Assembly (NCBI GenBank): GCA_017654935.2
Contig: CM065701.1
Coordinates: 1,866,609 to 1,930,608, forward strand
DNA length: 64,000 nt
DNA from: Phymorhynchus buccinoides
Lineage: Eukaryota; Mollusca; Gastropoda; Neogastropoda; Raphitomidae
Direction of reading: 5' to 3'
In this document: positions 360-62,305 of the stretch, piece after piece
Layout: each line of letters starts with the position of its first letter
How positions within the stretch are numbered: position 1 is the first letter of the stretch
The notes under the pieces: generated by a model
Database searches by the model: none
What the model was told of the DNA's origin: nothing
The model's input: the letters and a program-made list of their open reading frames with translations, nothing else
Position numbers and translations under genes: made by a program

Positions 360-949
360 GTGTGAAGTTATTGTCTGTGTGTGCTGTGCAGGGGAAGTAT
401 GGAGACCTGGACCTCATCTCCTACGGTCCCTGCCAGACACCCACCCTGGGCTGAAGCTGTTGTCTGTGTGTGTGCTATGCAGGGGAAGTATGGGGACCTG
501 GACCTCATCTCCTACGGTCCCTGCCAGACACCCACCCTAGGCTGAAGCTATTGTCTGTGTGTGTGTTGTGCAGGGGAAGTATGGGGACCTGGACCTCATC
601 TCCTATGGTCCCTGCCAGACACCCACCCTGGGCTGAAGCTATTGTCTGTGTGTGTGTTGTGCAGGGGAAGTTTGGAGACCTGGACCTCATCTCCTATGGT
701 CCCTGCCAGACACCCACCCTGGGCTGAAGCTATTGTCTGTCTGTGTGTGCTGTGCAGGGGAAGTTTGGAGACCTGGACCTCATCTCCTATGGTCCCTGCC
801 AGACACCCATCCTGGGCTGAAGCTATTGTCTGTCTGTGTGTTGTGTTGTGCAGGGGAAGTTTGGAGACCTGGACCTCATCTCCTATGGTCCCTGCCAGAC
901 ACCCATCCTGGGCTGAAGCTATTGTCTGTCTGTGTGTTGTGTTGTGCAG
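360..949 (+). repeat. TOP3B: acceptor-edge array upstream of TOP3B exon 1
   Basis: Six units of ~83-100 bp. Each has TG-rich sequence, a tgtgcag acceptor and ~66 bases resembling the exon 1 start (GGGAAGTATGGAGACCTGG and on), then gctgaagc. All copies share a 6-nt deletion relative to the authentic exon, so they descend from one founder copy. Confidence 0.9.
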
Positions 950-1084
950 GGGAAGTATGGAGACCTGGACAGCACCCTCATCTCCTTCGGTCCCTGCCAG
1001 ACACCCACCCTGGGCTTCTGTGTGGAGAGACATGATAAAATACAGTCCTTCAAGCCGGAGGCCTACTGGGTTATAAACACACAG
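950..1084 (+). CDS. TOP3B: TOP3B exon 1 of window
   Basis: 45 codons, phase 0 at both ends, from [20 protein letters not shown] to YWVINTQ. The acceptor is tgtgcag and the donor is GTGTGT at 1085. This is the core domain segment following the Toprim fold. Decoy copies lie on both sides: acceptor-type copies upstream and donor-type copies downstream. The real exon has a 6-nt stretch (agcacc, at about 971-976) that all upstream copies lack. Confidence 0.95.
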
Positions 1085-2691: not shown

Positions 2692-2733
<42 letters not shown>

Positions 2734-5700
2734 TGTGTGTGTGTGTGTGTGTGTGTGAGTGTGTGTGTGAGTGTGTGTGTGAGTGTGCATGCATGTGTGA
2801 TTTTCAAAAACATGTGTGTTGATGTTTCAGTGTGTTGGACACAGTCCAGAAGAAGGGAGAGAAGCCCAAACCTCTGGCTCTCAACACGGTGGAAATGCTT
2901 CGTGTGGCCAGCTCCGGCCTGGGTCAGTCTTTATCCTCGTTGGATGTTTGTCCGTCTGTCTGTCTGTGTGTGTCACCCTCTGTTTCTTCCTGTGTCTGTT
3001 TGCATCTCTCTCTGTTTCTCTATTTGGCTATGAACTATTATAATTCAGAATGTGAGAAATAGAGAATGTGTTAATCATGGAGATAGAGAGAGAGAGACAG
3101 ACAATCTGACTGGTAGTCAAGGAGAGAGAGTTGAGGGGGAGAATTTGTTAATCATGGAGATAGAGAGAGAGAGACAGACAATCTGACTGGTAGTCAAGGA
3201 GAGAGAGTTAAGGGGGAGAATTTGTTAATCATGGAGATAGAGAGAGAGAGACAGACAATCTGACTGGTAGTCAAGGAGAGAGAGTTGAGGGGGAGAATTT
3301 GTTAATCATGGAGATAGAGAGAGAGAGACAGACAATCTGACTGGTAGTCAAGGAGAGAGAGTTAAGGGGGAGAATTTGTTAATCATGGAGATAGAGAGAG
3401 AGAGACAGACAATCTGACTGGTAGTCAAGGAGAGAGAGTTGAGGGGGAGAATTTGTTAATCATGGAGATAGAGAGAGAGAGACAGACAATCTGACTGGTA
3501 GTCAAGGAGAGAGAGTTGAGGGGGAGAATTTGTTAATCATGGAGATAGAGAGAGAGAGACAGACAATCTGACTGGTAGTCAAGGAGAGAGAGTTGAGGGG
3601 GAGAATTTGTTAATCATGGAGATAGAGAGAGAGAGACAGACAATCTGACTGGTAGTCAAAGAGAGAGAGTTGAGGGGGAGAATTTGTTAATCATGGAGAT
3701 AGAGAGAGAGAGACAGACAATCTGACTGGTAGTCAAGGAGAGAGAGTTGAGGGGGAGAATTTGTTAATCATGGAGATAGAGAGAGAGAGAGACAGACAAT
3801 CTGACTGGTAGTCAAAGAGAGAGAGTTGAGGGGGAGAATTTGAATTTGAAGAGAGAAGTTGGAGAGACAAAACGTGGAGATTAGAGAAAGAGAGGGAGAC
3901 AAATCTCTTGCTGCAATGCAAGTGTCTTTTAAAAGTCATGTGCATGTGTTGTCCAATGCAGCCATGAGTCCCCACCACACCATGCAGACTGTCTCTACTT
4001 CCAGTATTCTGTGATAACTGTGTGCGTTGTGTTCTAACAGTCCTCACCATGCAGACTGTCTCTACTTCCAGTTTTCTGTGATAACTGTGTGCGTTGTGTT
4101 CTAACAGTCCTCACCATGCAGACTGTCTCTACTTCCAGTTTTCTGTGATAACTGTGTGCGTTGTGTTCTAACAGTCCTCACCATGCAGACTGTCTCTACT
4201 TCCAGTATTCTGTGATAACTGTGTGCGTTGTGTTCTAACAGTCCCCACCACACCATGCAGACTGTCTCTACTTCCAGTATTCTGTGATAACTGTGTGCGT
4301 TGTGTTCTAACAGTCCTCACCATGCAGACTGTCTCTACATCCAGTATTCTGTGATAACTGTGTGCGTTGTGTTCTAACAGTCCTCACCATGCAGACTGTC
4401 TCTACATCCAGTATTCTGTGATAACTGTGTGTGTTGTGTTCTAACAGTCCTCACCACACCATGCAGACTGTCTCTACTTCCAGTATTCTGTGATAACTGT
4501 GTGCGTTGTGTTCTAACAGTCCTCACCATGCAGACTGTCTCTACATCCAGTATTCTGTGATAACTGTGTGTGTTGTGTTCTAACAGTCCTCACCATGCAG
4601 ACTGTCTCTACATCCAGTATTCTGTGATAACTGTGTGCGTTGTGTTCTAACAGTCCTCACCACACCATGCAGACTGTCTCTACATCCAGTATTCTGTGAT
4701 AACTGTGTGCGTTGTGTTCTAACAGTCCTCACCATGCAGACTGTCTCTACTTCCAGTATTCTGTGATAACTGTGTGCGTTGTGTTCTAACAGTCCTCACC
4801 ACACCATGCAGACTGTCTCTACATCCAGTATTCTGTGATAACTGTGTGCGTTGTGTTCTAACAGTCCTCACCACACCATGCAGACTGTCTCTACATCCAG
4901 TATTCTGTGATAACTGTGTGCGTTGTGTTCTAACAGTCCTCACCATGCAGACTGTCTCTACATCCAGTATTCTGTGATAACTGTGTGCGTTGTGTTCTAA
5001 CAGTCCTCACCATGCAGACTGTCTCTACATCCAGTATTCTGTGATAACTGTGTGCGTTGTGTTCTAACAGTCCTCACCATGCAGACTGTCTCTACATCCA
5101 GTATTCTGTGATAACTGTGTGCGTTGTGTTCTAACAGTCCTCACCATGCAGACTGTCTCTACATCCAGTATTCTGTGATAACTGTGTGCGTTGTGTTCTA
5201 ACAGTCCTCACCATGCAGACTGTCTCTACATCCAGTATTCTGTGATAACTGTGTGCGTTGTGTTCTAACAGTCCTCACCATGCAGACTGTCTCTACTTCC
5301 AGTATTCTGTGATAACTGTGTGCGTTGTGTTCTAACAGTCCTCACCACACCATGCAGACTGTCTCTACTTCCAGTATTCTGTGATAACTGTGTGCGTTGT
5401 GTTCTAACAGTCCTCACCACACCATGCAGACTGTCTCTACTTCCAGTATTCTGTGATAACTGTGTGCGTTGTGTTCTAACAGTCCTCACCACACCATGCA
5501 GACTGTCTCTACTTCCAGTATTCTGTGATAACTGTGTGCGTTGTGTTCTAACAGTCCTCACCACACCATGCAGACTGTCTCTACTTCCAGTATTCTGTGA
5601 TAACTGTGTGCGTTGTGTTCTAACAGTCCTCACCATGCAGACTGTCTCTACTTCCAGTATTCTGTGATAACTGTGTGCGTTGTGTTCTAACAGTCCTCAC

Positions 5701-8550
5701 CACACCATGCAGACTGTCTCTACTTCCAGTATTCTGTGATAACTGTGTGCGTTGTGTTCTAACAGTCCTCACCATGCAGACTGTCTCTACTTCCAGTATT
5801 CTGTGATAACTGTGTGCGTTGTGTTCTAACAGTCCTCACCACACCATGCAGACTGTCTCTACTTCCAGTATTCTGTGATAACTGTGTGCGTTGTGTTCTA
5901 ACAGTCCTCACCACACCATGCAGACTGTCTCTACATCCAGTATTCTGTGATAACTGTGTGCGTTGTGTTCTAACAGTCCTCACCACACCATGCAGACTGT
6001 CTCTACATCCAGTTTTCTGTGATAACTGTGTGCGTTGTGTTCTAACAGTCCTCACCATGCAGACTGTCTCTACTTCCAGTATTCTGTGATAACTGTGTGC
6101 GTTGTGTTCTAACAGTCCTCACCACACCATGCAGACTGTCTCTACATCCAGTTTTCTGTGATAACTGTGTGCGTTGTGTTCTAACAGTCCTCACCACACC
6201 ATGCAGACTGTCTCCACATCCAGTTTTCTGTGATAACTGTGTGCGTTGTGTTCTAACAGTCCTCACCATGCAGACTGTCTCTACTTCCAGTATTCTGTGA
6301 TAACTGTGTGCGTTGTGTTCTAACAGTCCTCACCACACCATGCAGACTGTCTCTACATCCAGTTTTCTGTGATAACTGTGTGCGTTGTGTTCTAACAGTC
6401 CTCACCATGCAGACTGTCTCTACATCCAGTATTCTGTGATAACTGTGTGCGTTGTGTTCTAACAGTCCTCACCATGCAGACTGTCTCTACTTCCAGTATT
6501 CTGTGATAACTGTGTGCGTTGTGTTCTAACAGTCCTCACCATGCAGACTGTCTCTACATCCAGTATTCTGTGATAACTGTGTGCGTTGTGTTCTAACAGT
6601 CCTCACCACACCATGCAGACTGTCTCTACTTCCAGTATTCTGTGATAACTGTGTGCGTTGTGTTCTAACAGTCCTCACCACACCATGCAGACTGTCTCTA
6701 CTTCCAGTATTCTGTGATAACTGTGTGCGTTGTGTTCTAACAGTCCTCACCATGCAGACTGTCTCTACATCCAGTATTCTGTGATAACTGTGTGCGTTGT
6801 GTTCTAACAGTCCTCACCATGCAGACTGTCTCTACATCCAGTATTCTGTGATAACTGTGTGCGTTGTGTTCTAACAGTCCTCACCATGCAGACTGTCTCT
6901 ACTTCCAGTATTCTGTGATAACTGTGTGCGTTGTGTTCTAACAGTCCTCACCACACCATGCAGACTGTCTCTACATCCAGTTTTCTGTGATAACTGTGTG
7001 CGTTGTGTTCTAACAGTCCTCACCATGCAGACTGTCTCTACATCCAGTATTCTGTGATAACTGTGTGCGTTGTGTTCTAACAGTCCTCACCATGCAGACT
7101 GTCTCTACTTCCAGTATTCTGTGATAACTGTGTGCGTTGTGTTCTAACAGTCCTCACCATGCAGCAGACTGTCTCTACATCCAGTATTCTGTGATAACTG
7201 TGTGCGTTGTGTTCTAACAGTCCTCACCACACCATGCAGACTGTCTCTACTTCCAGTATTCTGTGATAACTGTGTGCGTTGTGTTCTAACAGTCCTCACC
7301 ACACCATGCAGACTGTCTCTACTTCCAGTATTCTGTGATAACTGTGTGCGTTGTGTTCTAACAGTCCTCACCACACCATGCAGACTGTCTCTACATCCAG
7401 TATTCTGTGATAACTGTGTGCGTTGTGTTCTAACAGTCCTCACCACACCATGCAGACTGTCTCTACTTCCAGTATTCTGTGATAACTGTGTGCGTTGTGT
7501 TCTAACAGTCCTCACCATGCAGACTGTCTCTACATCCAGTATTCTGTGATAACTGTGTGTGTTGTGTTCTAACAGTCCTCACCACACCATGCAGACTGTC
7601 TCTACTTCCAGTATTCTGTGATAACTGTGTGCGTTGTGTTCTAACAGTCCTCACCATGCAGACTGTCTCTACTTCCAGTATTCTGTGATAACTGTGTGCG
7701 TTGTGTTCTAACAGTCCTCACCACACCATGCAGACTGTCTCTACTTCCAGTATTCTGTGATAACTGTGTGCGTTGTGTTCTAACAGTCCTCACCACACCA
7801 TGCAGACTGTCTCTACATCCAGTATTCTGTGATAACTGTGTGCGTTGTGTTCTGACAGTCCTCACCATGCAGACTGTCTCTACATCCAGTATTCTGTGAT
7901 AACTGTGTGCGTTGTGTTCTAACAGTCCTCACCATGCAGACTGTCTCTACATCCAGTATTCTGTGATAACTGTGTGCGTTGTGTTATGACAGTCCTCACC
8001 ATGCAGACTGTCTCTACATCCAGTATTCTGTGATAACTGTGTGCGTTGTGTTCTAACAGTCCTCACCATGCAGACTGTCTACATCCAGTATTCTGTGATA
8101 ACTGTGTGCGTTGTGTTCTGACAGTCCTCACCATGCAGACTGTCTCTACATCCAGTATTCTGTGATAACTGTGTGCGTTGTGTTCTAACAGTCCTCACCA
8201 TGCAGACTGTCTCTACATCCAGTATTCTGTGATAACTGTGTGCGTTGTGTTATGACAGTCCTCACCACACCATGCAGACTGTCTCTACATCCAGTATTCT
8301 GTGATAACTGTGTGCGTTGTGTTCTGACAGGCTTGAGTCCTCACCACACCATGCAGCTAGCTGAGCGTCTCTACATCCAGGGCTACATCAGCTACCCCAG
8401 AACTGAGACCAACTCCTACCCCGAGAGCTTCGACCTCAAGTAAGTTCATGATCGTCGTCGTTATCATCATCATCATAGTTACATGAGCTACCCCAGAACT
8501 GAGAACTGAGACCAACTCCTACCCTGATAACTTCAACCTCAAATAAGTTT

Positions 8551-8582
<32 letters not shown>

Positions 8583-11500
8583 GTTCATCATTGTCATCAT
8601 CATTATCATGTTCATCGTTGTCATTGTCATCATCATCATCACCATCGCTATCATCATCATCATTATCATCTTCATCGTTAACATCATCGTCATCATTGTA
8701 ATGCTTGTACTGCGCTGATTACAATCTGATATTGATAACAACTGTGTCTGTGTGTGTTGTGTCAGGGGCACCCTCAGGCAGCAGCAGGACCACCCAGACT
8801 GGGGACCCTTTGTGCGCACACTGCTCCAGGAGGGCCTCAAGCAACCCAAGTAAGGGGCTGTGGTGTATGTGTGTTAGGGCCTCAAGCAACCCAAGTAAGG
8901 GGCTGTGGTGTATGTGTGTGTTAGGGCGTCAAGCAACCCAAGTAAGGGGCTGTGGTGTATGTGTGTGTTAGGGCGTCAAGCAACCCAAGTAAGGGGCTGT
9001 GGTGTATGTGTGTGTTAGGGCGTCAAGCAACCCAAGTAAGGGGCTGTGGTGTATGTGTGTGTTAGGGCCTCAAGCAACCCAAGTAAGGGGCTGTGGTGTA
9101 TGTGTGTGTTAGGGCGTCAAGCAACCCAAGTAAGGGGCTGTGGTGTATGTGTGTTAGGGCGTCAAGCAACCCAAGTAAGGGCCTGTGGTGTATGTGTGTG
9201 TTAGGGCGTCAAGCAACCCAAGTAAGGGGCTGTGGTGTATGTGTGTGTTAGGGCGTCAAGCAACCCAAGTAAGGGGCTGTGGTGTATGTGTGTGTTAGGG
9301 CGTCAAGCAACCCAAGTAAGGGGCTGTGGTGTATGTGTGTGTTAGGGCGTCAAGCAACCCAAGTAAGGGGCTGTGGTGTATGTGTGTGTTAGGGCGTCAA
9401 GCAACCCAAGTAAGGGGCTGTGGTGTATGTGTGTGTTAGGGCGTCAAGCAACCCAAGTAAGGGGCTGTGGTGTATGTGTGTGTTAGGGCGTCAAGCAACC
9501 CAAGTAAGGGGCTGTGGTGTATGTGTGTGTTAGGGCCTCAAGCAACCCAAGTAAGGGGCTGTGGTGTATGTGTGTGTTAGGGCCTCAAGCAACCCAAGTA
9601 AGGGGCCTGTGGTGTATGTGTAAGGGTGTAGGGTGTGTTAGGGCGTCAAGCAACCCAAGTAAGGGGCTGTGGTGTATGTGTGTGTTAGGGCGTCAAGCAA
9701 CCCAAGTAAGGGGCTGTGGTGTATGTGTGTGTTAGGGCCTCAAGCAACCCAAGTAAGGGGCTGTGGTGTATGTGTGTGTTAGGGCCTCAAGCAACCCAAG
9801 TAAGGGGCTGTGGTGTATGTGTGTGTTAGGGCGTCAAGCAACCCAAGTAAGGGGCTGTGGTGTATGTGTGTGTTAGGGCGTCAAGCAACCCAAGTAAGGG
9901 GCTGTGGTGTATGTGTGTGTTAGGGCCTCAAGCAACCCAAGTAAGGGGCTGTGGTGTATGTGTGTGTTAGGGCGTCAAGCAACCCAAGTAAGGGGCTGTG
10001 GTGTATGTGTGTGTTAGGGCCTCAAGCAACCCAAGTAAGGGGCTGTGGTGTATGTGTGTGTTAGGGCCTCAAGCAACCCAAGTAAGGGGCTGTGGTGTAT
10101 GTGTGTGTTAGGGCCTCAAGCAACCCAAGTAAGGGGCTGTGGTGTATGTGTGTGTTAGGGCCTCAAGCAAGCAACCCAAGTAAGGGGCTGTGGTGTATGT
10201 GTGTGTTAGGGCGTCAAGCAACCCAAGTAAGGGGCTGTGGTGTATGTGTGTGTTAGGGCCTCAAGCAACCCAAGTAAGGGGCTGTGGTGTATGTGTGTGT
10301 TAGGGCCTCAAGCAACCCAAGTAAGGGGCTGTGGTGTATGTGTGTGTTAGGGCCTCAAGCAACCCAAGTAAGGGGCTGTGGTGTATGTGTGTGTTAGGGC
10401 CTCAAGCAACCCAAGTAAGGGGCTGTGGTGTATGTGTGTGTTAGGGCCTCAAGCAACCCAAGTAAGGGGCTGTGGTGTATGTGTGTGTTAGGGCCTCAAG
10501 CAACCCAAGTAAGGGGCTGTGGTGTATGTGTGTGTTAGGGCCTCAAGCAACCCAAGTAAGGGGCTGTGGTGTATGTGTGTGTTAGGGCCTCAAGCAACCC
10601 AAGTAAGGGGCTGTGGTGTATGTGTGTGTTAGGGCCTCAAGCAACCCAAGTAAGGGGCTTTGGTGTAGGTGTGTGTTAGGGCCTCAAGCAACCCAAGTAA
10701 GGGGCTTTGGTGTAGGTGTGTGTTAGGGCCTCAAGCAACCCAAGTAAGGGGCTGTGGTGTAGGTGTGTGTTAGGGCCTCAAGCAACCCAAGTAAGGGGCT
10801 GTGGTGTATGTGTGTGTTAGGGCCTCAAGCAACCCAAGTAAGGGGCTGTGGTGTATGTGTGTGTTAGGGCTTGTCAAGCAACCCAAGTAAGGGGCTGTGG
10901 TGTAGGTGTGTTAGAGCCTCAGACAACAGGGGCTGTTAGTCAACAGTCCATAGTTCTTGTCATCAACACTATGTGGTGTATGTGTGTGTTAGGGCCTCAG
11001 ACAACCCCAGTAAGGGGCTGTTGGTCAACAGTCCATAGTTCTTGTCATCAACACTATGTGATGTATGTGTGTGTTAGGGCCTCAGACAACCCAAGTAAGG
11101 GGCTGTTGGTCAACAGTCCATAGTTCTTGTCATCAACACTATGTGGTGTATGTGTGTGTTAGGGCCTCAGACAACCCAAGTAAGGGGCTGTTGGTCAACA
11201 GTCCATATCGATGGCTTGGAGTCAAAACGGACTATCTTTGCATAGACCATTGACGTATTATTGGATTTATTACAGAAAACAATAACTTGTATCAAACAAT
11301 GACTGCAGAAATATAAAAAGGGGGGTTTGCTTTTTATATTTCAGCAGTCATTTTTTTATACAAATGATTAATTTTCGTAATAAGTTCAATAATATGTCAA
11401 TGGTCTATCTAAAGATAGTCCCCTTTGACTCCAAGCCATCGATATGTTTTGTCATTAACCCTCTTATGCGGTTAACGTTCAGGAATGTTCAGAAAAAAAT

Positions 11501-20369: not shown

Positions 20370-20426
<57 letters not shown>

Positions 20427-36190: not shown

Positions 36191-36198
36191 AGCTTAGA

Positions 36199-37735: not shown

Positions 37736-37754
37736 ACATAATCATGCGCACACC

Positions 37755-40182: not shown

Positions 40183-40191
40183 CTTTCTTTC

Positions 40192-41265: not shown

Positions 41266-41324
41266 TGATCACTCTTTTGACGCTTTACTGGAATAAAACC
41301 TGGTGGACACTAGCATGGGTGCTC

Positions 41325-42354: not shown

Positions 42355-42694
42355 TCACTCTGCCGACGCCTTGTCCTTTCCCCTTCTCTGCGCGGCGTGA
42401 GACAGCGTCAGCAGCGACCCAGTGGCCTCCTTCCTCTCCTCGCCGCCCCCCGCCAGCTGCTTGGCGTAGGCCTGGCGGATCAGGCGGAAGGCTTGCTGCG
42501 TGGCGTAAGGCGTGTTGGTGAGGGGGTCCACGTATTTGGCGGGCAGCCCCGTGACGGGGCAGAGCTTTTTCTGCGGAGGTTTGCGCTTCACCTGCGGGAA
42601 GATGGCCGCCATGATGGTCTGGTCGGTGAAGGTGATGAACGTGCGCGAGCATTTCTCCCCCGAGGGGTGGGCCGCCTCCACGGCTTGGTCCTCC
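42355..42694 (-). CDS. VPS72: VPS72 exon 6 (terminal), YL1_C domain
   Basis: 113 codons including TGA at 42357-42355. KCSRTFITFTDQTIMAAIFP, then KLCPVTGLPAKYVDPLTNTP, YATQQAFRLIRQAYAKQL. CPVT.....Y.DP....PYAT is the YL1_C signature. Acceptor tttcag; a copy of the acceptor and first ~30 bases lies at about 42760-42800. Confidence 0.96.
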
Positions 42695-51600: not shown

Positions 51601-54600
51601 AATACTGATCATAGCAATAGCGATTACAACAACATAATAATACTGATCATAGCAATAGCGATTACAACATAATAATAATACTGATCATAGCAATAGCGAT
51701 TACAAACATAATAATACTGATCATAGCAATAATAATAATACTGATCATAGCAATAGCGATTACAACATAATAATACTGATCATAGCAATAGCGATTACAA
51801 CATAATAATACTGATCATAGCAATAGCGATTACAACATAATAATAATACTGATCATAGCAATAGCAATTACGATTACAACATAATAATACTGATCATACA
51901 ATAGCGATTAATAATAATAATACTGATCATAGCAATAGCGATCATAGCAATAGCGATTACAACATAATAATACTGATCATAGCAATAGCGATTACAACAA
52001 ACATAATAATACTGATCATAGCAATAGCGATTACAACAACAACATAATAATACTGATCATAGCAATAGCGATTACAACATAATAATAATACTGATCATAG
52101 CAATAGCGATTACAACATTACAACATAATAATACTGATCATAGCAATAGCGATTACAACAACATAATAATAATACTGATCATAGCAATAGCGATTACAAC
52201 ATAATAATAATACTGATCATAGCAATAGCGATTACAACAACATAATAATAATACTGATCATAGCAATAGCGATTACAACAACAAATAATAATACTGATCA
52301 TAGCAATGATACAACATAGATCATAGCAATAGCGATTACAACACATAATAATACTGATCATAGCAATAGCGATTACAACATAATAATAATACTGATCATA
52401 GCAATAGCGATTACAACAATAATAATAATACTGATCATAGCAATAGCGATTACAACAACATAATAATAATACTGATCATAGCAATAGCGATTACAAATAA
52501 TAATAATACTGATCATAGCAATAGCGATTACAACACATAATAATACTGATCATAGCAATAGCGATTACAACAACATAATAATAATACTGATCATAGCAAT
52601 AGCGATTACAACAACACATAATAATACTGATCATAGCAATAGCGATTACAACAACACATAATAATACTGATCATAGCAATAGCGATTACAACATAATAAT
52701 ACTGATCATAGCAATAGCGATTACAACAACATAATAATACTGATCATAGCAATAGCGATTACAACATAATAATACTGATCATAGCAATAGCGATTACAAA
52801 CATAATAATACTGATCATAGCAATAGCGATTACAACAAATAATAATACTGATAATACAATAGCGATGATCATAGCAATAGCGATTACAACATAATAATAC
52901 TGATCATAGCAATAGCGATTACAACATAATAATACTGATCATAGCAATAGCGATTACAATATAGATTAATAATAATACTGATCATAGCAATAGCGATTAC
53001 AACATCATAATAATACTGATCATAGCAATAGCGATTACAACATAATAATAATACTGATCATAGCAATAGCGATTACAACATAATAATAATACTGATCATA
53101 GCAATAGCGATTACAACATAATAATACTGATCATAGCAATAGCGATTACAACAACATAATAATAATACTGATCATAGCAATAGCGATTACAACATAATAA
53201 TAATACTGATCATAGCAATAGCGATTACAACATAATAATACTGATCATAGCAATAGCGATTACAACATAATAATAATGATCATAGCAATAGCGATTACAA
53301 CAACATAATAATACTGATCATAGCAATAGCGATTACAACAACATACATAATAATACTGATCATAGCAATAGCGATTACAACAACATATAATAATACTGAT
53401 CAATAGCAATACAACGATAATACTGATCATAGCAATACGATTACAACATAATAATACTGATCATAGCAATAGCGATCACAACAACAACATAATAATACTG
53501 ATCATAGCAATAGCGATTACAACAACATAATAATACTGATCATAGCAATAGCGATTACAACAACAACATATAATAACAAATAACACCACTGCTTATTTAC
53601 ATTTTGAAGCATGGGTGAAAGTAAAGCATTATCTCAATCCTGAAAAGACACGTTTCAATGTCCTCTGAATCTTCCCAATCCTGAAGTGGTGACCACATCA
53701 AAGGTCATTTCCAATGTGTGTGTGCACGATGGGCCAATCAACAACATGAAAGGTCATTTCCAATGTGTGTACAGGATGGGCCAATCAACAACATGAAAGG
53801 TCATTTCCAATGTGTGTACAGGATGGGCCAATCAACAACATCAAAGGTCATTTCCAATGTGTGCAGGATGGGCCAATCAACAACATCAAAGGTCATTTCC
53901 AATGTGTGCAGGATGGGCCAATCAACAACATCAAAGGTCATTTCCAATGTGTGTGCAGGATGGGCCAATCAACAACATCAAAGGTCATTTCCAATGTGTG
54001 TGCAGGATGGGCCAATCAACAACATGAAAGGTCATTTCCAATGTGTGTGCAGGATGGGCCAATCAACAACATCAAAGGTCATTTCCAATGTGTGTGCAGG
54101 ATGGGCCAATCAACAACATGAAATACATTTTTTAATAACCCTGTGCTGCCATTATCAATCTCGTTCTCGCGAGACTAAAAAAAAATGGAAGAAAATGGTG
54201 GATTTTTATTAATCCCTACTATCTATTTAACTTAATACTTACCAACACCTGAAACAATTGCATTAGCGTTAAGCGACCTGGAGCTATACCATAGCACATA
54301 GAAAAACGAAAGTAGGCCTCTGGCCTTGACCCCTAGCCGGATGTGGGGCGGGAGTGATCCCCCTTACCGGTCTAGCAGTGGCTAGGCCAATGAGCGCCTA
54401 CTTCCGCCATTACGCAATTTTACAGGAAGCATCTTAATTAGTGAGGGAGGATACAAGGGAGGGTACCTCGTTTGTTTCAGGTGTTGGTAAGTATTAAGTT
54501 AAATAGATAGTAGGGATTAATAAAAATCCACCAATCTACTTTAACCATACTGTACCAACACCTGAAACAATTGCAGATTACCAAAGTGGAGGAGGGTAGA

Positions 54601-57600
54601 TGCTTCAATACCCCCAAACCACAGAGTGAGAGCAAGAACCTGGGAGCTTTTTTCCCACGAACACTCTTCTGAAAAACAGAACCCCTGTACTCCCTTTTTT
54701 TCCCCTTAGACAACTAGGTAATCCTAGGCAAAAGAGTTGGGGAAAAAGGGGGGGTGGGGTGTGTGTGCCCCAATATTGCCCCAAAACATCATTGCAATGA
54801 TATACCCACTAAAAAACAACATAGGGGGTGGCTGATGGGAGCTTGTCCCCGTACTCACTGGTTTTAGAGGGAGACGGAGGTCTGGGCGACAACTACCTTC
54901 TTGATCATGAAGGAGTCGTCGTCGTGCTGCGTGGAGATGTCCCGCAGGTAGAAGCTGAGGAAGGTGTTGAGCGACCTCCAGTAAGCGGATGACATTATTT
55001 TAACCATGGGCACCCCCTTAACCAGAGCGAGCGAGGCGCTGATTGCGCGGAGCTCGTGGACCCTGACAGAGCCAGATGGCAGGCTAACTGGAGACTGAGA
55101 ATAGGAAAGCTTGATACAGTCTAGCAACCATCTAGCAACCGTGTTCTTTGAAACGTCCTTAGTGTACTTAGGGTTGATAGAGAGAAACAGTCTCCTCCTA
55201 GAACCCCTAAAACCCTTGGTTCTGGAGAGATAGGACCTGAGGGCGCGGACCGGACAAAGGAAGCGGTCGGCGTCATCCGGACAGAGGATAGTCCTAAGAC
55301 TGGGGATGGAGAGAAGAGGTGACTCGACATCGCCGGGTTGATTTTTGGCCCTGAACTCGGGCAGAAAGCAAAGAGAAACCGACGAAAAATCCCCGGAGAA
55401 CTCCACGTCCCTGGGGAGTCCGCTAAGGGCGTGGAGGCCACTGACCCGTCTGGTCGAAGCCAAAGCAATCAAGAAAACCGTCTTGAGAGTGAGGACTTTG
55501 AGGGAAAGGGAAGAGAGAGGTTCACAACGATCCCTTAAATAATTCAACACAAGAAACACGTCCCACTGAGGGACCCGGACAGTCCTCGCCGGGGCCCGTA
55601 AACGCACCGCGTCCAGGAAGTGGGAAACCTGCGGAGCGGAAAGCTTAGAGGTTCGGTCAAAACCCAAAGCTAATGAAATGGTGTTGATGAGAGAGGCCCT
55701 GTAGCCAGAAAGGGTCTGAGCAGAGAGGCCCTTAGTTCTGTACAGATGAGACAAGAACTCCACAAACTGGACTGTGGAAGGGCGCAGCGCGTCAAATTTC
55801 TTGCGCGCGCAGAAAGAGAACCATGCCTTCCAGCGCAAATCGTACAAGGCATTGGTGGATTGGCGCCGAGAGGTCAGCAGAAGCTCCACGGTTCTCGAAG
55901 AGAAGCCCTGTCGCCGGAAACCGAGTTTTATAGTTTCCATGCGGCCAGGTTTAGCCTGAAAGGGTTTGGATGGCCTAGACCGCTCCTTGGCTGGAGGAGG
56001 GTCTTGGGTGTGAGCCCCAGCATGAGGGGGCCGTCCCTGGCCAGAGCCAGCAGTTCTGGAAACCAGTGTTGAGTCGGCCAATGGGGCGCGACGAGGATCA
56101 TGTCTGGTCTTTCCAGGAGGCACTTGGCCAAGACTTTCGTGAGCAACGCAGTCGGGGGGTAGGCGTAAACCGACATCCCTGACCAAGACATCGCAAAGGC
56201 GTTGCGGGCCAAGGCCTGAGGGTCCCTGACTGGGGACACGTACAGAGGTAGACGATTGCTGTACCTCGTGGCAAAGAGATCCACCATGGGCTTGCCCCAG
56301 CGTCTCCAGACTGGGGTCAAGGCCCGATGCGCAATCGTCCACTCCGTTTGAAGCACCTGATGAGAGCGGCTGAGTTGGTCCGCCAGAACATTGAGTTTTC
56401 CCGGGACAAACTCCACTGACAGGGAGATCCCGTGGCTGTCGGCCCAAACCAGAGTGTCCTCCGCCGTCAGAGACAGGGAGGCTGAGCGGGTGCCCCCCTG
56501 ACGACGGAGGTACGCCAAGCTGGTCGAGTTGTCTCCGCAGACCGTGACCTCCTTTCCCCGAATCGCGGGGAGAAAGTGGATCAGGGCCAGCCGGATGGCT
56601 TCCAACTCGAGCCAGTTGATATGGAGACGTGTTTGTGGCTCTGTCCACACGCCCGAGGCTTCTTCCGTCTCCATATGGGCTCCCCACCCGCTTAGGGAGG
56701 CATCCGTGTGGATGAACAGCTGGGAACCCAAACGACTGATTGGGACCATGCTGTTCATCCAACACGGGTCGGTCCAAGCCATGACCGCCGTCCGAAACCA
56801 ATCCCCCAACGCGACCTGCTGGTCGAAGTGGGATGGGTCCAGGATGCGCGCCGTCAACTCCCGTTGCAGTGGCCTTTTGCGCACTCTGCCCAACGGGAGG
56901 AGCTCCGCTACCGACTCCATGAGGCCCAAAAGGCTGAGGAGTCGGCGAAACGTGGCCGACTTCGCCTCTGAGAGGTCGGCCACGAGACTGACAATGGCTG
57001 AAAGCCTGCCCTCGGACGCCGTGACCGTAAAGTTCACGGTGTCGAAGCACATGCCGAGATAGGTGAAGGTCTGAGAGGGGGTCAGATCTGACTTCTTGGA
57101 GTTGATGCGGAACCCCAGCCGAAGCGAGAGGTCCACAAGAACTCGGGTGTGGTCGAGCGAGAGAGCGCGAGAGGATGCGAGTAAAAGCCAGTCGTCGAGA
57201 AAGACCTTTAACCGCAGCCCCTGCGAGCGGGCCAGAGCGGCCAGCTCTCTGGTCACCTTGGTGAAGATCCAGGGGGCCAGAGAGAGACCGAATGGTAGGG
57301 CGTTGAATTGGAAAGTTTCTCCCTTCCAGACGAAGCGGAGAAACTTTCTGCGGGAAGGGTGGATGGACAGATGGAAGTAAGCGTCTTGCAAGTCCACTGA
57401 GGTTGCCCAGTCCCCTGGACGTATGAACGAACGGACCGTGGACGGAGTTTCCATCTTGAACCTGGTTTTGTGAAGAAACTTGTTCAGCGGAGACAGATCC
57501 AGAACAGGGCGGTAACCGCCCGACTTCTTCGTGACCGTGAAGAGACGCGAGTAGAAACCGGGTCCTGGAAGAGGGACCCGGGAGCGCCAACCGTACTGGG

Positions 57601-60600
57601 TCTGCCGGGGGGGAGAAAGCGATCGGTTTTGCCGAGAGTGGCGGTTCTAGCTCGAAGGGGAACCGATACCCTTCCCGCACGACGCCGAGAATCCAGGCGT
57701 TGTCGACAAGAGAGCGCCAAGCGGGATACGCCTGAGACAGGGCATCCACGCTGGACGCCACGACGCCTGCCGGTTCCCGGCAGCGCGCGGGCTCTACCGA
57801 AAAGACTGTTGCGGCTTCCCGCCGGCCGGTCGGGAAGAGCCCCTCGTAGAGGGGTTGCGAGGGCGGTAAGGACGGAGACCTCTCGTGTGCCTAGCCACGT
57901 ACTGAGAGGACTTGGAGTCCTGAGTCCTCGGGAAGATTGAGCGCTTTCTGCGCTCCAGGGACCGACCCCCTGGCCTGAACCGAGCAGAGTGCGATTCCGA
58001 GCTCTGCCTGGCCTGCTTGACTAGCAGAGCCAACATGGCCTCGTGGCCGTCCTGAGCCTTACGCTCCGAAGACAGCTTGATCACCGAGCCGAGAGCTTCC
58101 TCCCCGAAGAGGCCCGAAAGGGGAAGAGGAAGGGAACGGAGTTGCTCTTTCTCCCTTGCCGAGAGGGTTTTTGCCTTCGCGAGAAAGCTGTCCCTTGCGA
58201 TCGCGGAGGTTTGGACCTTGAGGGAGGCGAGGACATCCGTAAGACTCTGGAGAGCCTCACCGAGCGCGGCGAGAGAGACTCCCACAGCCGGTTCGTCGAC
58301 TTGCTCGAACAAGCGAAAGTCCATCGGGGACCGAGAGGGAGCAGAGCTCCCCAAGGAGTCCGAAGCGGTTTGAGCGAGAGAACTCGCGACCCCGCAGCCT
58401 TTGAGAGCGTCCGAAAGAGCTACTTCGAGGGTCCTGAAGGAGGAGGCCTTGAGGGTGAAAGAGTGACATCCTTCCGAACACTTGAGTCTGTCACTCTCTA
58501 CCCCCGAGGGTTTTGAGAAACGGGCGAAAGGGAGATAGTCGGCATGGAGACCCAGAACCGTCCGGAACTGGGGAACCAAGAAAGAGCCGGAGGACGAAGA
58601 CTCTTCGCGACTGCGCACAGAGTGGCCTTGAGCGAAGCGCCTGTCGTCCAACAGCCTTCCTGTACGCAACGATTCCTCCGCCCGGAGAATAGACTCCTGG
58701 AGGCAGGAGGGAGGCTGAAGGAAAAGATGGTCTTTCCCTTGCTGGAAAGAGCCAGCCGACTGGCCTGTGGCCGAGGCCGAGACGGGAGCGGAGAGGCGGA
58801 CCACATCCGGGCACGCCCCGCCGATCACGTCCAGGAGGGCCTGGTTGGAAGAGTCCCGCACAACTGGAGGGTCGACGGGTGAAGCGGGAGGAGGAAGATT
58901 GCGAAAAGATTCCCTGATGGCTTTGAGAAGACGCTCGTCCAATGCCGGAGGAGAACGTGTCGGAGACAAAGAAGCCTCCGAGGATCCGTGGTTCATGGGT
59001 GAACCCGGCCGAGAGAGGCCTAGATCTGGTTCGCCAACGGAAGACTGTGGGGAGAGGGCTCCATCCTGCCCGCGGCCCGGGGAGCCAGGGAGGCCGAGGC
59101 CTCCCCGGTGACCCGCCGGGGGAGGCCCATCCTGTCCGCGGTCTGGAGTGCCGGGGAGGCCGCGGCCTACTAGGCCACGGCCCCCGAGGCCTCCTACCGA
59201 GGGAGGCCCGGGCCTGAGGGAGGCCCGGTGGGGGAGGCCCGAGGGAGACGGAGAGGCCAAGCGGGGCCGCTTGCCACCACGGTCGGCCGACCGGGGGCTA
59301 CGGTGGCCCGAACGGCGGTAGGCCGCACTGGCGGGGAGGCCTTCGTCCACCGGCTCCGGGTCCATCCGGAGCCGAGGTGTAGGGCCTCCAGGCCTGGAAT
59401 AGACTCGACCGGTGTCCCCACCATTGGGGGGATCACCGGGAGAACCTCTCGGACAGAGGCCCGCGGCCAGGGCGAAGCGTCCATGAGAGGCACCCTTCAC
59501 GCCGTCGGAGACTTTCCGACGACGAGGGGGTGTTAGCCGGTAGGCCTCGGGCTCCCCGGCCGGGGAGGTGTCGAGAGGCCTACGGCCTTCCGGGCTCGAG
59601 TTCCCTTCGAGACACCGGGATGTCTGCCCGAGGCCCCAGTCGTAAGACCTCGACCTATGGTCGGAAGGGGACCTCCTTCGCCCTCCCTCGAAAGGGGTGG
59701 GGAGACTAGGCGGGCCCCCGAGTGCAAACTTGCCACTCGGGGCGACAGACATGCGCGGCTGCGACTTATCCCACGAAGTTGAAGTCGAAGCCCGGGTAGA
59801 GGTGGTGGCCTTGGTGGAGAGAGGCCTCCTGTCTGAACAGAAAGGCACAACCGGACCTAAAGACGAATCTGGCCTAGAGGCCTTACACTTCGGTGGTGAG
59901 AATGTGAAACCCGACAACACTGGGACCGAAGAGGGCCTAGGAGGCCCACACGGTGAAGACTGAGAATGAGAGCGCTGAGACTTGGAGTGCTTGGACCTCG
60001 ATTTGTGAGAAACTGAACGGATGGATTTATCCGAAGATTCCTTAGAACGGAAACGGCCTGCTTCGTCCCTAGGAAGAGGAGAATGGACCACGGGGTCAAC
60101 CTGAACTTTAGGAGAAACATTCGAGTTTGAGCCAGAAGTGGCCATATCGTGTGCGTGCGCGCGTGCACTGGAGCACGGCGAGTGAGCGACGCGACAAAGA
60201 AAATTATATCTCAAGTTCTAGAAAAGAGAGAACTATAAAAACTGAGTCAATCGAGACTCAGATACACCCTATGTCCGATGATAGGAGGAAATGGAACAAA
60301 CCCACCTAGTTAGAGTGCAATAGAAGAAAAAAGTCAGAGTGCTGGTAGCCCAGGTCTTGCCATGAACGCTGGAAAATAGTAATGGCGGAAGTAGGCGCTC
60401 ATTGGCCTAGCCACTGCTAGACCGGTAAGGGGGGATCACTCCCGCCCCACATCCGGCTAGGGGTCAAGGCCAGAGGCCTACTTTCGTTTTTCTATGTGCT
60501 ATGGTATAGCTCCAGGTCGCTTAACGCTAATGCAATTGTTTCAGGTGTTGGTACAGTATGGTTAAAGTAGATAGTGATAGTTTTCGGCTGGCTCGCTTTG

Positions 60601-62305
60601 GATGAGGATCAAAGCGCTTGCGAAACAAACAAAGGGGTTTCTTAGGACTGTTTAGTTTTAGCTGAATTGCGCAAACAGCTTTGAGCGCCCGCTCTTGTGA
60701 AGCGGATTCTGCTCTCTTTATTCTTTTTGGACAGTAGCTTCTGGCTTCCAGTTTCACCAAAGGATATCACACAAACCTTTCAACAGCTGTTTACCTTATA
60801 AGCCTTAGTGAAGATGGCTTCCAGCTTCACCCAAGGATATCACATGAACCTTTCCACAGCTGTTTACCTTATAAGCCTTAGTGAAGATGGCTTCCAGTTT
60901 CACCCAAGGATATCACATGAACCTTTCCACAGCTGTTTACCTTATAAGCCTTAGTGAAGATGGCTTCCAGTTTCACCAAAGGATATCACATGAACCTTTC
61001 CACAGCTGTTTACCTTATAAGCCTTAGTGAAGATGGCTTCCAGTTTCACCAAAGGATATCACATGAACCTTTCCACAGCTGTTTACCTTATAAGCCTTAG
61101 TGAAGATGGCTTCCAGTTTCACCCAAGGATATCACATGAACCTTTCCACAGCTGTTTACCTTATAAGCCTTAGTGAAGATGGCTTCCAGTTTCACCAAAG
61201 GATATCACATGAACCTGTCCACAGCTGTTTACCTTATAAGCCTTAGTGACCACCCGTTTCCTCCTCTTCGGTTCGTCGTCGTCGTCCACATCGCTGCGAA
61301 CATCGTCGTTTTCATCGATGCTGAAGTCAGAGTCGGTCGATTCTGAATCTGACTCTTCTGAGTCGTAGTCATTGTCCTCTGCTTCCTGAGAGCGAGAAAA
61401 ATGCGAACAAACATGTTAATCTGTTTGTATGTGTGTGCGTATCTTAAAATATGTATGCACATGTATGAACAAACATAATCATACATGAGCACATACACTT
61501 CAAATACATATTTTTTACCTTGAATTTGTAATCTTTACGTGTATCAGTCACTTTCCAACGAATAACTTTGAAACAGCAACTGAGCAAGTACTCCTTTTTG
61601 AGTGAAGATCATGTAGCATACATTTTTAAAAAAAGAAAACAATGATAATCAGACAAGCTGATTTGGCCATTTCACAGGCAGACAAATAAACCAAAGTCAA
61701 GCAAACCAAGAAATAACTTAGACAAGTGTATAATTGTATTACCTCTAAGCAAAGAACAATAGGTTTTCTTCAAACATAATTTGGTATATATATTCTAGTC
61801 ACAGAGTTTGTCTCTGTGAAATTTGGAGAGCGTATCACTGTGAATGTAGCGCCACTCACTTTATTCATATTGACAGGGGAGTGGGGGGGGGGGGGGAAGC
61901 GAGGAGGGGTGAGGATGGAGAGTGGACTTAGGAAACCTTTCAATCAATTTGGTCACACCATGTAATTGAATTTCTCCCTACTTTTAACTGCCGTGGGAAT
62001 TTTTATGTGCGTAAAGCGCATGGGTATAACTAGAAGTCCTTATCTGAAGGACTCATCGTTCAGTTCAATTTTCCCATCGAATTAGAAAGACAGGGAGAGT
62101 CCTGGATTCGATCCAGGGTCACTCGCGCACTGAAATTGGCATGGGAACTGTACCCACTTTGCCACATTCCTTCCTAAAAGGGAAATTCTCATACCTCTTC
62201 AAAGCCGCCATAGGTGGTCTTGTAGAACTCGTCCTCATCCTCCGCCTCCAGAAGATGCGTCATGCGACTGCCCGCGTTCCCTCTGCGCGCCCGCTCAGCC
62301 GCCAT
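42355..62305 (-). CDS. VPS72: VPS72/YL1 homologue, H2A.Z chaperone subunit (complete, 6 exons)
   Basis: YL1 binds H2A.Z-H2B dimers and delivers them within the SRCAP and TIP60/p400 remodelling complexes in the nucleus. Exons, in order: 62305-62195, 61385-61233, 45446-45332, 44596-44396, 44073-43929, 42694-42355. They total 1,065 nt, a 354-residue protein (human 364), with consistent phases and GT-AG borders throughout. The start ATG at 62305 sits in a good Kozak context (caccATGG). The N terminus reads RMTHLLEAEDEDEFYKTTYG then an acidic stretch and KRRKRVVTKAYK, the H2A.Z-binding region. The middle is basic coiled-coil-like. The C terminus has KCSRTFITF, LCPVTGLPAKYVDPLTNTPY and the YL1_C signature YAT..AF..IR. 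Exons 1 and 2 are separated from exon 3 by a 15.8-kb intron full of repeats. The stop faces the TOP3B stop. Confidence 0.96.
42701..42875 (-). repeat. VPS72: single acceptor-edge copy of VPS72 exon 6
   Basis: ggggtgggccgcctccatgg and cttggtcctccctcaaatca recur at 42762-42806 with the following intron sequence (aacacaacaaaggctataag), so the edge duplicated as a ~100-bp unit. The copy changed the acceptor context from tttcag to ttgag. Confidence 0.85.
43070..43285 (-). mobile_element. non-LTR retrotransposon RT fragment
   Basis: On the minus strand, SVLVNGCQSEQVRLSCGVPQ, GSVLGPVLFTFYTSPL and HHFYADDSQLH: the GVPQGSVLGP and YADD motifs of LINE reverse transcriptase, covering only motifs around the active site. 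Located in VPS72 intron 5. A fragment, not functional. Confidence 0.88.
43385..43925 (-). repeat. VPS72: donor-edge array of VPS72 exon 5, 5-6 copies
   Basis: Units of ~95-100 bp repeat ctaccagtcgctgaccatgc, ctcttcaccgaggaccagga and on to the GGTGAGTTGATGGG donor, joined by TG-rich intron sequence. One unit lacks a few bases (ccctcctcc for ccccctcctcc). Confidence 0.92.
43929..44073 (-). CDS. VPS72: VPS72 exon 5
   Basis: Encodes ETYQKLELEKKRSRVVKEVY, RGPVIRYQSLTMPLF, EDQEEIDVEEGG, matching PGPIITYHSVTVPL in human. Acceptor tgcag; donor GTGAGT, which recurs in six downstream copies. Confidence 0.95.
44201..44370. mobile_element. foldback MITE in VPS72 intron 4
   Basis: Terminal repeats TTGTTACGCCCAATCC and the complement-like GGATTGGGTGTAACA, with inner palindromes catttcatgaaa. 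Flanked by CAT on both sides. 170 bp, non-coding. Confidence 0.65.
44396..44596 (-). CDS. VPS72: VPS72 exon 4
   Basis: Encodes ERKSLRKSTALKSKQTQSRQ, then MLAEIADRNNVKVEDVRRLT, ending EQINLKSL. It matches RKSMRQSTAEHTRQ and TQEELLREAKITEELNLRSL in human. Acceptor tctccag; donor GTCAGT. Two copies of its 5' half lie upstream in intron 3. Confidence 0.95.
44636..45080 (-). repeat. VPS72: two acceptor-edge copies of VPS72 exon 4
   Basis: The copy at 44652-44745 is nearly identical to the exon start (gcctgcacctctcgctgctt; ttgcgtaaagacttgcgctc) with a usable acceptor (ttgccag). The copy at 44990-45080 is older and diverged. Confidence 0.88.
45332..45446 (-). CDS. VPS72: VPS72 exon 3
   Basis: Encodes EPKREEPAEKKVKVEEEKKK then DDIPSVQIYTSP, a low-complexity Lys/Glu linker, phase 0 in and 1 out. 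The acceptor ttgccag lies only ~10 nt from the 8-kb minisatellite, which therefore supplies the branch point and pyrimidine region. Donor GTACCA. Confidence 0.88.
45455..53578. repeat. 8.1-kb minisatellite, ~38-bp unit, ~200 copies
   Basis: Unit: cataataatactgatcatag caatagcgattacaacaa. The ends of the unit are themselves variable trinucleotide runs, (AAT)n and (CAA)n. Each unit holds the palindrome TGATCA. Truncated and fused units are frequent. It starts ~10 nt from the acceptor of VPS72 exon 3 and fills half of intron 2. Confidence 0.95.
53690..54122 (+). repeat. ~46-bp tandem repeat, 9 copies
   Basis: Units of aaaggtcatttccaatgtgt, gcaggatgggccaatcaaca. Unit length varies by 2 bp in a TG step. 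It lies between the minisatellite and the DIRS element in VPS72 intron 2. Confidence 0.92.
54241..54413 (+). repeat. DIRS right inverted terminal repeat
   Basis: Inverted copy of 60380-60552. Starts accaacacctgaaacaattg; inner end tacttccgccatta. Beyond 54241 the outer 45 nt are unique to this end. Confidence 0.9.
54472..54575. repeat. DIRS internal complementary region
   Basis: 104 bp whose first part complements the right outer end (54196-54257) and second part complements the left outer end (60530-60572). The join corresponds to GTAGAT|TGGTGG on the reverse strand. It serves as template for circularisation in the DIRS replication model. Confidence 0.9.
54864..57761 (-). CDS. DIRS element tyrosine recombinase ORF (overlaps RT frame)
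   Basis: A single open frame of 965 codons. The first ~55 residues are the RT start. The next ~540 are the RT/RNase H region read in a second frame with no stop. From about residue 640 it is a tyrosine recombinase: TNALYDLRWKAWFSFCARKK, the Arg motif ASTRRVSGLH (Arg ~771-772), VHELRAISASLAL (His-x-x-Arg at ~902-905) and the nucleophile in FYLRD (Tyr ~938). This R..HxxR..Y set is complete. Extensive overlap of the recombinase and RT frames is a DIRS hallmark. The true recombinase start is unknown and may be internal. Confidence 0.85.
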   Translation of the reverse strand: MASSVDALSQAYPAWRSLVDNAWILGVVREGYRFPFELEPPLSAKPIAFSPPADPVRLALPGPSSRTRFLLASLHGHEEVGRLPPCSGSVSAEQVSSQNQVQDGNSVHGPFVHTSRGLGNLSGLARRLLPSVHPPFPQKVSPLRLEGRNFPIQRPTIRSLSGPLDLHQGDQRAGRSGPLAGAAVKGLSRRLAFTRILSRSLARPHPSSCGPLASAGVPHQLQEVRSDPLSDLHLSRHVLRHRELYGHGVRGQAFSHCQSRGRPLRGEVGHVSPTPQPFGPHGVGSGAPPVGQSAQKATATGVDGAHPGPIPLRPAGRVGGLVSDGGHGLDRPVLDEQHGPNQSFGFPAVHPHGCLPKRVGSPYGDGRSLGRVDRATNTSPYQLARVGSHPAGPDPLSPRDSGKGGHGLRRQLDQLGVPPSSGGHPLSLPVSDGGGHSGLGRQPRDLPVSGVCPGKTQCSGGPTQPLSSGASNGVDDCASGLDPSLETLGQAHGGSLCHEVQQSSTSVRVPSQGPSGLGPQRLCDVLVRDVGLRLPPDCVAHESLGQVPPGKTRHDPRRAPLADSTLVSRTAGSGQGRPPHAGAHTQDPPPAKERSRPSKPFQAKPGRMETIKLGFRRQGFSSRTVELLLTSRRQSTNALYDLRWKAWFSFCARKKFDALRPSTVQFVEFLSHLYRTKGLSAQTLSGYRASLINTISLALGFDRTSKLSAPQVSHFLDAVRLRAPARTVRVPQWDVFLVLNYLRDRCEPLSSLSLKVLTLKTVFLIALASTRRVSGLHALSGLPRDVEFSGDFSSVSLCFLPEFRAKNQPGDVESPLLSIPSLRTILCPDDADRFLCPVRALRSYLSRTKGFRGSRRRLFLSINPKYTKDVSKNTVARWLLDCIKLSYSQSPVSLPSGSVRVHELRAISASLALVKGVPMVKIMSSAYWRSLNTFLSFYLRDISTQHDDDSFMIKKVVVAQTSVSL
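55928..57761 (-). CDS. DIRS element ORF: reverse transcriptase, RNase H, methyltransferase-like domain
   Basis: RT begins in the frame of 57761 (WILGVVREGYRFPFELEPPL). Near 57590 it moves to the next frame, where FYSRLFTVTKKSGGYRPVLD and the rest of RT continue to a stop at 55928. RT motifs are DLQDAYFHLSIHP, ALPFGLSLAP and the active site VFLDDWLL (57196-57191 encode DD). RNase H follows: HTDASLSGWGAH, NWLELEAIRLAL, CGDNSTSLAYL. The last part, MVDLFATRYSNRLPLYVSP and YAYPPTALLTKVL, is the Dam-like methyltransferase-related domain typical of DIRS. The missing ~20 residues at the frame change point to a small deletion. Confidence 0.88.
57794..60145 (-). CDS. DIRS element ORF1 (gag-like)
   Basis: 783 codons from MATSGSNSN at 60145. 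An in-frame ATG 69 nt upstream exists but falls in the leader next to the terminal repeat. The N-terminal half is Ser/Pro/Arg-rich and disordered. The C-terminal ~350 residues are more structured (LDERLLKAIRESFRNL; FLQPPSCLQESILRAEESLR; LGLHADYLPFARFSKP) and end in a basic Arg/Ser tail. The position, size and basic tail fit the nucleic-acid-binding gag-like protein of DIRS elements. I see no zinc knuckle. It ends 32 nt before the next ORF start. No stop or frameshift inside. Confidence 0.8.
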   Translation of the reverse strand: MATSGSNSNVSPKVQVDPVVHSPLPRDEAGRFRSKESSDKSIRSVSHKSRSKHSKSQRSHSQSSPCGPPRPSSVPVLSGFTFSPPKCKASRPDSSLGPVVPFCSDRRPLSTKATTSTRASTSTSWDKSQPRMSVAPSGKFALGGPPSLPTPFEGGRRRSPSDHRSRSYDWGLGQTSRCLEGNSSPEGRRPLDTSPAGEPEAYRLTPPRRRKVSDGVKGASHGRFALAAGLCPRGSPGDPPNGGDTGRVYSRPGGPTPRLRMDPEPVDEGLPASAAYRRSGHRSPRSADRGGKRPRLASPSPSGLPHRASLRPGPPSVGGLGGRGLVGRGLPGTPDRGQDGPPPAGHRGGLGLPGSPGRGQDGALSPQSSVGEPDLGLSRPGSPMNHGSSEASLSPTRSPPALDERLLKAIRESFRNLPPPASPVDPPVVRDSSNQALLDVIGGACPDVVRLSAPVSASATGQSAGSFQQGKDHLFLQPPSCLQESILRAEESLRTGRLLDDRRFAQGHSVRSREESSSSGSFLVPQFRTVLGLHADYLPFARFSKPSGVESDRLKCSEGCHSFTLKASSFRTLEVALSDALKGCGVASSLAQTASDSLGSSAPSRSPMDFRLFEQVDEPAVGVSLAALGEALQSLTDVLASLKVQTSAIARDSFLAKAKTLSAREKEQLRSLPLPLSGLFGEEALGSVIKLSSERKAQDGHEAMLALLVKQARQSSESHSARFRPGGRSLERRKRSIFPRTQDSKSSQYVARHTRGLRPYRPRNPSTRGSSRPAGGKPQQSFR
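60380..60552 (-). repeat. DIRS left inverted terminal repeat
   Basis: Inverted copy of 54241-54413, differing by one extra G in the run at about 60427. The outer 20 nt (60553-60572) are unique to this end and are copied in the internal complementary region. Confidence 0.9.
60770..61232 (-). repeat. VPS72: donor-edge array of VPS72 exon 2, ~6 copies
   Basis: Units of ~73 bp. On the gene's strand each has cactaaggcttataag, donor GTAAACAGCTG, tggaaaggttcatgtgatat and tttggtgaaactggaagcc. Only ~17 coding bases are included per unit. Single-base variants (acccaagg/accaaagg) alternate. Confidence 0.92.
61233..61385 (-). CDS. VPS72: VPS72 exon 2
   Basis: 51 codons, EAEDNDYDSEESDSESTDSD then EPKRRKRVVTKAYK. 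Acidic then basic, as in the family. The donor AAG|GTAAAC is repeated in the array that follows in the gene's direction. Confidence 0.95.
61390..61914. other. VPS72 intron 1 part, nothing recognised
   Basis: A+T-rich, with a short (TATG)n-like stretch at 61425-61470 and a G run at about 61884-61896. No gene. Confidence 0.5.
61915..62150 (-). mobile_element. SINE-like dispersed repeat, copy 2 (inverted)
   Basis: On the minus strand a B-box-like cctggatcgaatccagg precedes acgcacataaaaattcccac, ggcagttaaaagtaggg and accaaattgattg, the last parts shared with 28210-28325. Probably a tRNA-derived SINE in VPS72 intron 1. Confidence 0.6.
62195..62305 (-). CDS. VPS72: VPS72 exon 1
   Basis: 37 codons from MAAERARRGNAGSRM to TTYGGFEE, phase 0 out, donor GTATGA. 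It aligns with GNRLSGLLEAEEEDEFYQTT of human VPS72, the conserved H2A.Z-contacting start. Confidence 0.95.

Follow-up and report, generated by a model that had tools for sequence, protein, structure and literature searches.

In this study, we have described the copying of exon edges into the adjacent introns of two neighbouring genes, TOP3B and VPS72, of the gastropod Phymorhynchus buccinoides. Within the window, that is, the whole stretch of 64,000 nucleotides that was analysed, 20 of 35 exon edges have intronic copies of their own sequence, which in 14 cases form tandem arrays with units of 47–126 bp and at the other copied edges are present one to three times. These exon-edge arrays are likely to be "mirage" minisatellites, arising by local tandem duplication and amplification and presumably tolerated by splicing, with the net effect that introns are enlarged by repeated copying of the sequence at their ends.

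The window contains 13 exons of TOP3B on the + strand and six exons of VPS72 on the - strand. The TOP3B protein matches DNA topoisomerase 3-beta-1 (PDB 9cah_A, E 1e-249) and, over 550 residues, has identities of 87% and 86% with its counterparts in Littorina saxatilis and Batillaria attramentaria, the closest two among the 120 matches listed; the closest matches of VPS72 include Babylonia areolata (69% identity) and Nucella lapillus (67%). Both proteins thus point to a caenogastropod-like mollusc. Exon borders were set from translation, frame continuity and GT/AG. We have numbered the TOP3B exons E6 to E18 and the VPS72 exons V1 to V6, the latter from right to left, with L and R denoting the exon side. 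On the + strand, TOP3B occupies 950–1084 (E6), 2027–2139 (E7), 2831–2922 (E8), 8331–8439 (E9), 8766–8849 (E10), 13098–13218 (E11), 15982–16164 (E12), 18229–18438 (E13), 19218–19435 (E14), 21440–21620 (E15), 23436–23635 (E16), 27205–27308 (E17) and 30693–30930 (E18, the last exon). On the - strand, VPS72 occupies about 62305–62204 (V1, with an approximate donor end), 61385–61233 (V2), 45446–45332 (V3), 44596–44396 (V4), 44073–43929 (V5) and 42694–42355 (V6), the ends used in our scripts deviating by nine bases at most. E6 to E17, when joined, are open in frame 0. Near the start of E18 there is a one-base frame shift with respect to related species, which is either a sequence error or a real lesion. 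A search of Rfam gave no match within the window.

The presence of copies was assessed by comparing 50 coding bases from each edge with the intron on the same side, against 200 dinucleotide shuffles. Sixteen of the 25 TOP3B edges scored above all the shuffles, namely E6L, E6R, E7R, E8L, E9L, E9R, E10R, E11R, E12L, E12R, E13L, E13R, E14R, E15L, E16L and E16R, as did four of the ten VPS72 edges (V2R, V4L, V5R and V6L), the search in the 15.8-kb intron of the latter gene covering the nearest 6 kb. By the same test the remaining nine TOP3B edges are negative, E17R being borderline (reached by 2 of 200 shuffles), and E17, E18, V1 and V3 show no detectable edge copies. Fifteen of the 19 exons are thus affected, 11 of 13 in TOP3B and four of six in VPS72, the counts given by the original prediction (for TOP3B as a minimum), which had also rightly pointed to the same behaviour in two genes on opposite strands and to short tandem duplications crossing the edges. 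Both types of boundary are alike in this respect, copies being present for 9 of the 18 acceptors and for 11 of the 17 donors, and the number of intronic copies per edge ranges from 1 to 62, with its maximum at E9L, close to the predicted range of 1 to about 64. Among non-overlapping 50-mers from TOP3B introns outside the arrays, taken as controls, 11 of 149 recur in their own intron, at least two of these 11 being stretches of simple repeats. Chance can be excluded because 20 of 35 edges have copies, as compared with 11 of 149 controls (Fisher P 4e-10, or 3e-8 when seven non-edge array units join the controls and are all scored as having copies, 18/156). The evidence, also for the original suggestion of a property of this genome, comes from two genes in a window picked for showing the edge-copy pattern, and P values from within it are therefore uninformative on its genome-wide frequency. 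A full self-BLAST returned 704 rows, too few for the repeat content, and was replaced by an exon-wise BLAST with 15 exons and their 100-base flanks (E17, E18, V1 and V3 left out; V6 entered with a later start and returning no row), which found edge-spanning copies in the adjacent introns, with identities to the exon of about 70% to 99%.

The anatomy of the copies in TOP3B, all on the + strand, ranges from single remnants to long arrays. E6 is preceded by six copies of a 91-bp acceptor-edge unit (363–949), with a common 6-bp deletion relative to the exon, and followed by donor-edge copies (1085–1801), seven of a 74-bp unit up to 1634 and another at 1712–1801. The single donor-edge copy of E7 (2209–2326) is diverged, at 71–77% identity and with GT changed to GC, and the two acceptor-edge copies of E8 (2470–2778) both run into (TG)n. 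The acceptor edge of E9 gives rise to a 67-bp array (3945–8330) in which 62 intronic copies were scored, all 62 with an intact AG; by eye, its most distal copy looks different. The one donor-edge copy of E9 (8485–8579) carries AT in place of GT. In both E6 and E9, the copies on the acceptor side and those on the donor side end at almost the same exonic position, a few bases apart at most. At the donor edge of E10 (8850–11207), 43 intronic copies of a 47-bp unit, with GT intact in all 43, are followed by derivative units of 85 bp; a 78-bp array at 12386–12880, the unit of which has no donor, appears by eye from its consensus to be a derivative of this array. Two donor-edge copies of E11 are found at 13242–13402.

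E12 has one acceptor-edge copy (15799–15880), with AG changed to AT, and two donor-edge copies (16190–16333), the second of which is fused to an acceptor-edge copy of E13, so that at 16282–16397 an E12 donor-edge unit and an E13 acceptor-edge unit are joined with no intron between them. The E13 acceptor-edge array proper (16334–18228) has a unit of about 126 bp, with AG intact in all 13 intronic copies scored, and a short donor-edge copy of the same exon lies at 18529–18566. Seven donor-edge copies of E14 (19436–20880) are interrupted by an unrelated 63-bp array (19820–20060), and three acceptor-edge copies precede E15 (21146–21439). E16 has a diverged acceptor-edge array (21998–22935, 12 copies of a 77-bp unit), in which the copies that read ATG keep the 11-base spacing from CAG to ATG found in the exon, and a donor-edge array (23636–25897) with a 93-bp unit and GT intact in all 26 intronic copies scored. 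Arrays had been predicted to join the true exon, but not all of them touch it, since E16L ends at 22935, 500 bp short of E16. In E12, E13 and E16, three of the five exons copied at both edges, the two copy ends do not meet (as judged by eye for E16). Before E17, a transposon-like insertion at 26263–27109, with inverted ends AGAGTTGCATCTAGG / CCTAGATGCAACTCT recognized by eye, splits a 30-bp minisatellite.

In VPS72, on the - strand, we found one acceptor-edge copy of V6 (42691–42868), a donor-edge array of V5 (43366–43929) with a 109-bp unit and GT intact in four of the five intronic copies scored, two separate acceptor-edge copies of V4 (44654–45083), and a donor-edge array of V2 (60742–61232) with a 73-bp unit and GT intact in all six intronic copies. 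A further array of 41-bp units, about 200 copies according to Tandem Repeats Finder (45451–53575), abuts the V3 acceptor without containing exon bases. The intron between V2 and V3 also holds G+C-rich, retrotransposon-like frames on the - strand (54867–60217), with a reverse transcriptase domain (PF00078) in one of the three frames scanned and no Pfam match in the other two.

The contribution of these copies to intron length, measured on edge-derived intervals drawn by hand from the exon-wise BLAST, amounts to 15,727 of 28,942 bases (54%) for the TOP3B introns in the window and to 1,435 of 18,882 bases (8%) for those of VPS72, in line with the suggestion that the process is a route to intron growth. 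The extreme case is the intron between E12 and E13, 95% of which has been copied from the two edges that border it; the copies from the donor side and those from the acceptor side adjoin each other at 16333/16334, with nothing in between.

The mirage explanation can be laid out in three steps. First, one exon edge together with its splice site would be captured by a local tandem duplication of short length (about 50–130 bp), as seen in the anatomy of the copies. The extra unit would then be amplified and homogenised in the intron as a minisatellite, which is apparent in three arrays and is presumed for the others. All six E6L copies lack an identical set of six exon bases, of 29 E9L copies scored, at least 90% have a seven-base deletion in common, and the E16L copies, compared over 26 columns, all depart from the exon at the same four places; since these changes are common to nearly all copies and absent from the exon, one captured unit has been amplified in each case. 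E6R and E13L have one fixed difference each from the exon, and E10R, E14R, E15L, E16R, V2R and V5R have none; all eight, which closely match the exon, are either recent or homogenised with it. Finally, the duplications would be nearly neutral, because each copy has one exon edge only and the true site gives the shortest exon. Exon definition would keep picking this site, which is always exon-proximal, whereas splicing at a copy would add stretches of the array to the exon. Tolerance of the arrays through exon definition, as proposed in the original prediction, is plausible, and the open frame of E6 to E17 agrees with it.

Old low-copy relics would be expected to diverge, often with loss of the splice dinucleotide. 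Of 167 intronic copies in seven arrays, 166 have an intact dinucleotide (genuine sites excluded; 172 of 173 when the genuine site is counted in six of the seven), as compared with 14 of 23 low-copy relics, which is the pattern expected from decay; in at least three of the nine relics without an intact dinucleotide, however, the alignment ends before the site, and loss there is not demonstrated. The almost perfect retention within arrays might suggest that they are kept because redundant splice sites aid splicing or its regulation. We find this very improbable: from 63 to 96% of all columns in the seven arrays are equally invariant, which gives no indication that the copied splice sites are under selection, and the relics, 77–100% identical in this comparison, have fewer intact dinucleotides than the 18.5 expected from identity squared. 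Even less credible is an origin of the arrays in the assembly itself. Long tandem arrays are difficult to assemble and the copy numbers come from one assembly, but substitutions and indels distinguish the units, identity is as low as 71–77% in some relics, a different array lies within that of E14R, and two edges are fused in one copy; the span of identities to the exon, from about 70% to 99%, likewise disfavours assembly stutter.

Whether edges are preferred as sites of duplication is a separate matter, addressed here with arrays called by Tandem Repeats Finder blind to the exons, 22 of which were picked by hand. In the random model, one unit per array was placed over the introns, after subtraction of arrays and large transposon-like insertions. 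Fourteen of the 22 arrays span an exon edge versus 3.4 expected, an excess of about fourfold (P 2e-7), made up of 11 of 17 in TOP3B (2.5 expected) and three of five in VPS72 (0.9 expected, P 0.04). This count omits simple repeats, the arrays at 12386–12880 and 27110–27193, which are parts or derivatives of others, edges without an array listed by the program (e.g., E7R, E8L, E9R, E12L, E13R and V4L), and three short arrays of 18, 19 and 22 bp, the addition of which gives 14 of 25 versus 3.4 expected (P 2e-7). With E16L scored as non-edge, the excess is 13 of 22 versus 3.0 expected (P 4e-7), or versus 5.6 (P 5e-4) when placement is also limited to 200 bp or less from exons.

The excess is genuine for the introns as they are at present, but its size depends on intron length. 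It requires either targeting of the edges or short ancestral introns, which could yield the same result without targeting. Under the latter reading, local duplications would arise at random, in a genome prone to repeats, and show no preference at all, because in very short ancestral introns the segments that do not break an exon mostly cross an edge. This is a possibility that we hold with some reserve. Uniform introns of 120 bp give 12.4 of 22 expected and the excess is gone (P 0.31), those of 160 bp give 10.3 (P 0.07), and after removal of arrays six of the 13 TOP3B introns measure 109–362 bp (seven of 13 with the transposon-like insertion before E17 also removed); the actual residual introns, however, predict only the 3.4 mentioned above, and the excess persists if no intron is allowed to exceed 300 bp (7.0 expected, P 0.001) or if all are set to 200 bp (8.8 expected, P 0.015). 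We are similarly tentative about exon edges being actively prone to duplication, for instance by pairing of simple repeats near splice sites with short exonic matches or by breaks linked to transcription or splicing. The array excess and the contrast between edges and control 50-mers would agree with it, and so would the convergence of acceptor and donor copies on one exonic point in E6 and E9, even though the copy ends do not meet in E12, E13 and E16 and no copies are detected at 15 of the 35 edges. The words that exonic breakpoints have in common with the unit's intronic portion are also a little longer than those at other places in the exon (sum 84 versus 72.8, P 0.005, for 19 of 20 edges, E16L left out, with breakpoints placed by eye). 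This signal is modest, is led by a few edges, and is strongest in E13L, E6L and E6R; it is a hint of pairing between short matches rather than a proof.

Other origins were considered and rejected. The E12-E13 copy at 16282–16397, which might have come from spliced cDNA, is missing the last part of E12 and the first part of E13, and therefore is not an exact exon-exon junction; other junction-spanning BLAST rows are, by eye, chance similarities or ordinary edge copies. Gapped rows that cover both edges of E6, E8 and E9, as whole-exon duplication would produce, chain separate copies of the acceptor and the donor edge or, for E8, cross (TG)n.

Tandem repeats at exon edges have precedents. The human interferon-induced gene 6-16 (IFI6) has a minisatellite with multiple splice donors at an exon edge, comparable to the snail arrays in its repeated donor sites and different from them in being a case of one gene with short units. 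Closer are the amphioxus mirages, known, in the accessible parts of two reports, from Adh3, the globins BflGb6 and BflGb9, troponin C and PGBD5 (PMC3087553, PMC3902484, both citing Cañestro et al. 2002). They are there described as minisatellite-like tandem duplications over the 5' or 3' intron/exon boundary that retain the splice signal in many, although not all, copies, apparently leave splicing undisturbed, and have been suggested to give rise to new introns (PMC3087553). One such boundary is described for BflGb6, where one haplotype has 6 units and another 3, and one for BflGb9 (PMC3087553), and repeats of 60 and 108 bp are found at splice sites of PGBD5, with troponin C as a further case (PMC3902484). 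Further criteria for a mirage are concerted evolution within the cluster except for its boundary units, length polymorphism and somatic instability. The snail repeats resemble the amphioxus ones in spanning the boundary (20 of 35 edges, 14 tandem arrays), in affecting both acceptors and donors, and in keeping the splice signal in many but not all copies, almost throughout in the arrays and in 14 of 23 relics. The novelty claimed by the original prediction does not stand, as the same structures and the proposal of intron gain had been published (PMC3087553). In potato, a tandem duplication across an intron-exon boundary, as in the snail, led to a new intron, whereas the snail evidence consists of boundary copies only (PMC4974935).

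Our literature search on mirages returned amphioxus as the only relevant cases, the others being judged by title; among the matches listed for mollusc minisatellites, no exon-edge case was apparent from title or abstract, and the accessible part of a Conus intron paper mentions simple repeats alone. What looks new with respect to the published mirages is the phylum, a mollusc instead of a chordate, and the density, two genes having copies at 20 of their 35 boundaries and up to 62 at a single one, far above the cases described in the accessible texts.

If mirages occur at most exon edges of a mollusc, the process is no chordate oddity, which bears on the old question of the origin and growth of introns. 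TOP3B alone apparently holds all its stages, from near-identical arrays through one of 62 copies to decayed relics, and its arrays offer a natural test of how splicing would pass over dozens of nearby sites of the same quality. It is possible, as a more speculative extension, that exon edges are genome-wide hotspots of tandem duplication in this snail lineage, many introns having grown chiefly by the copying of splice junctions. If true, such edges would supply many spare splice sites for new introns or exons.
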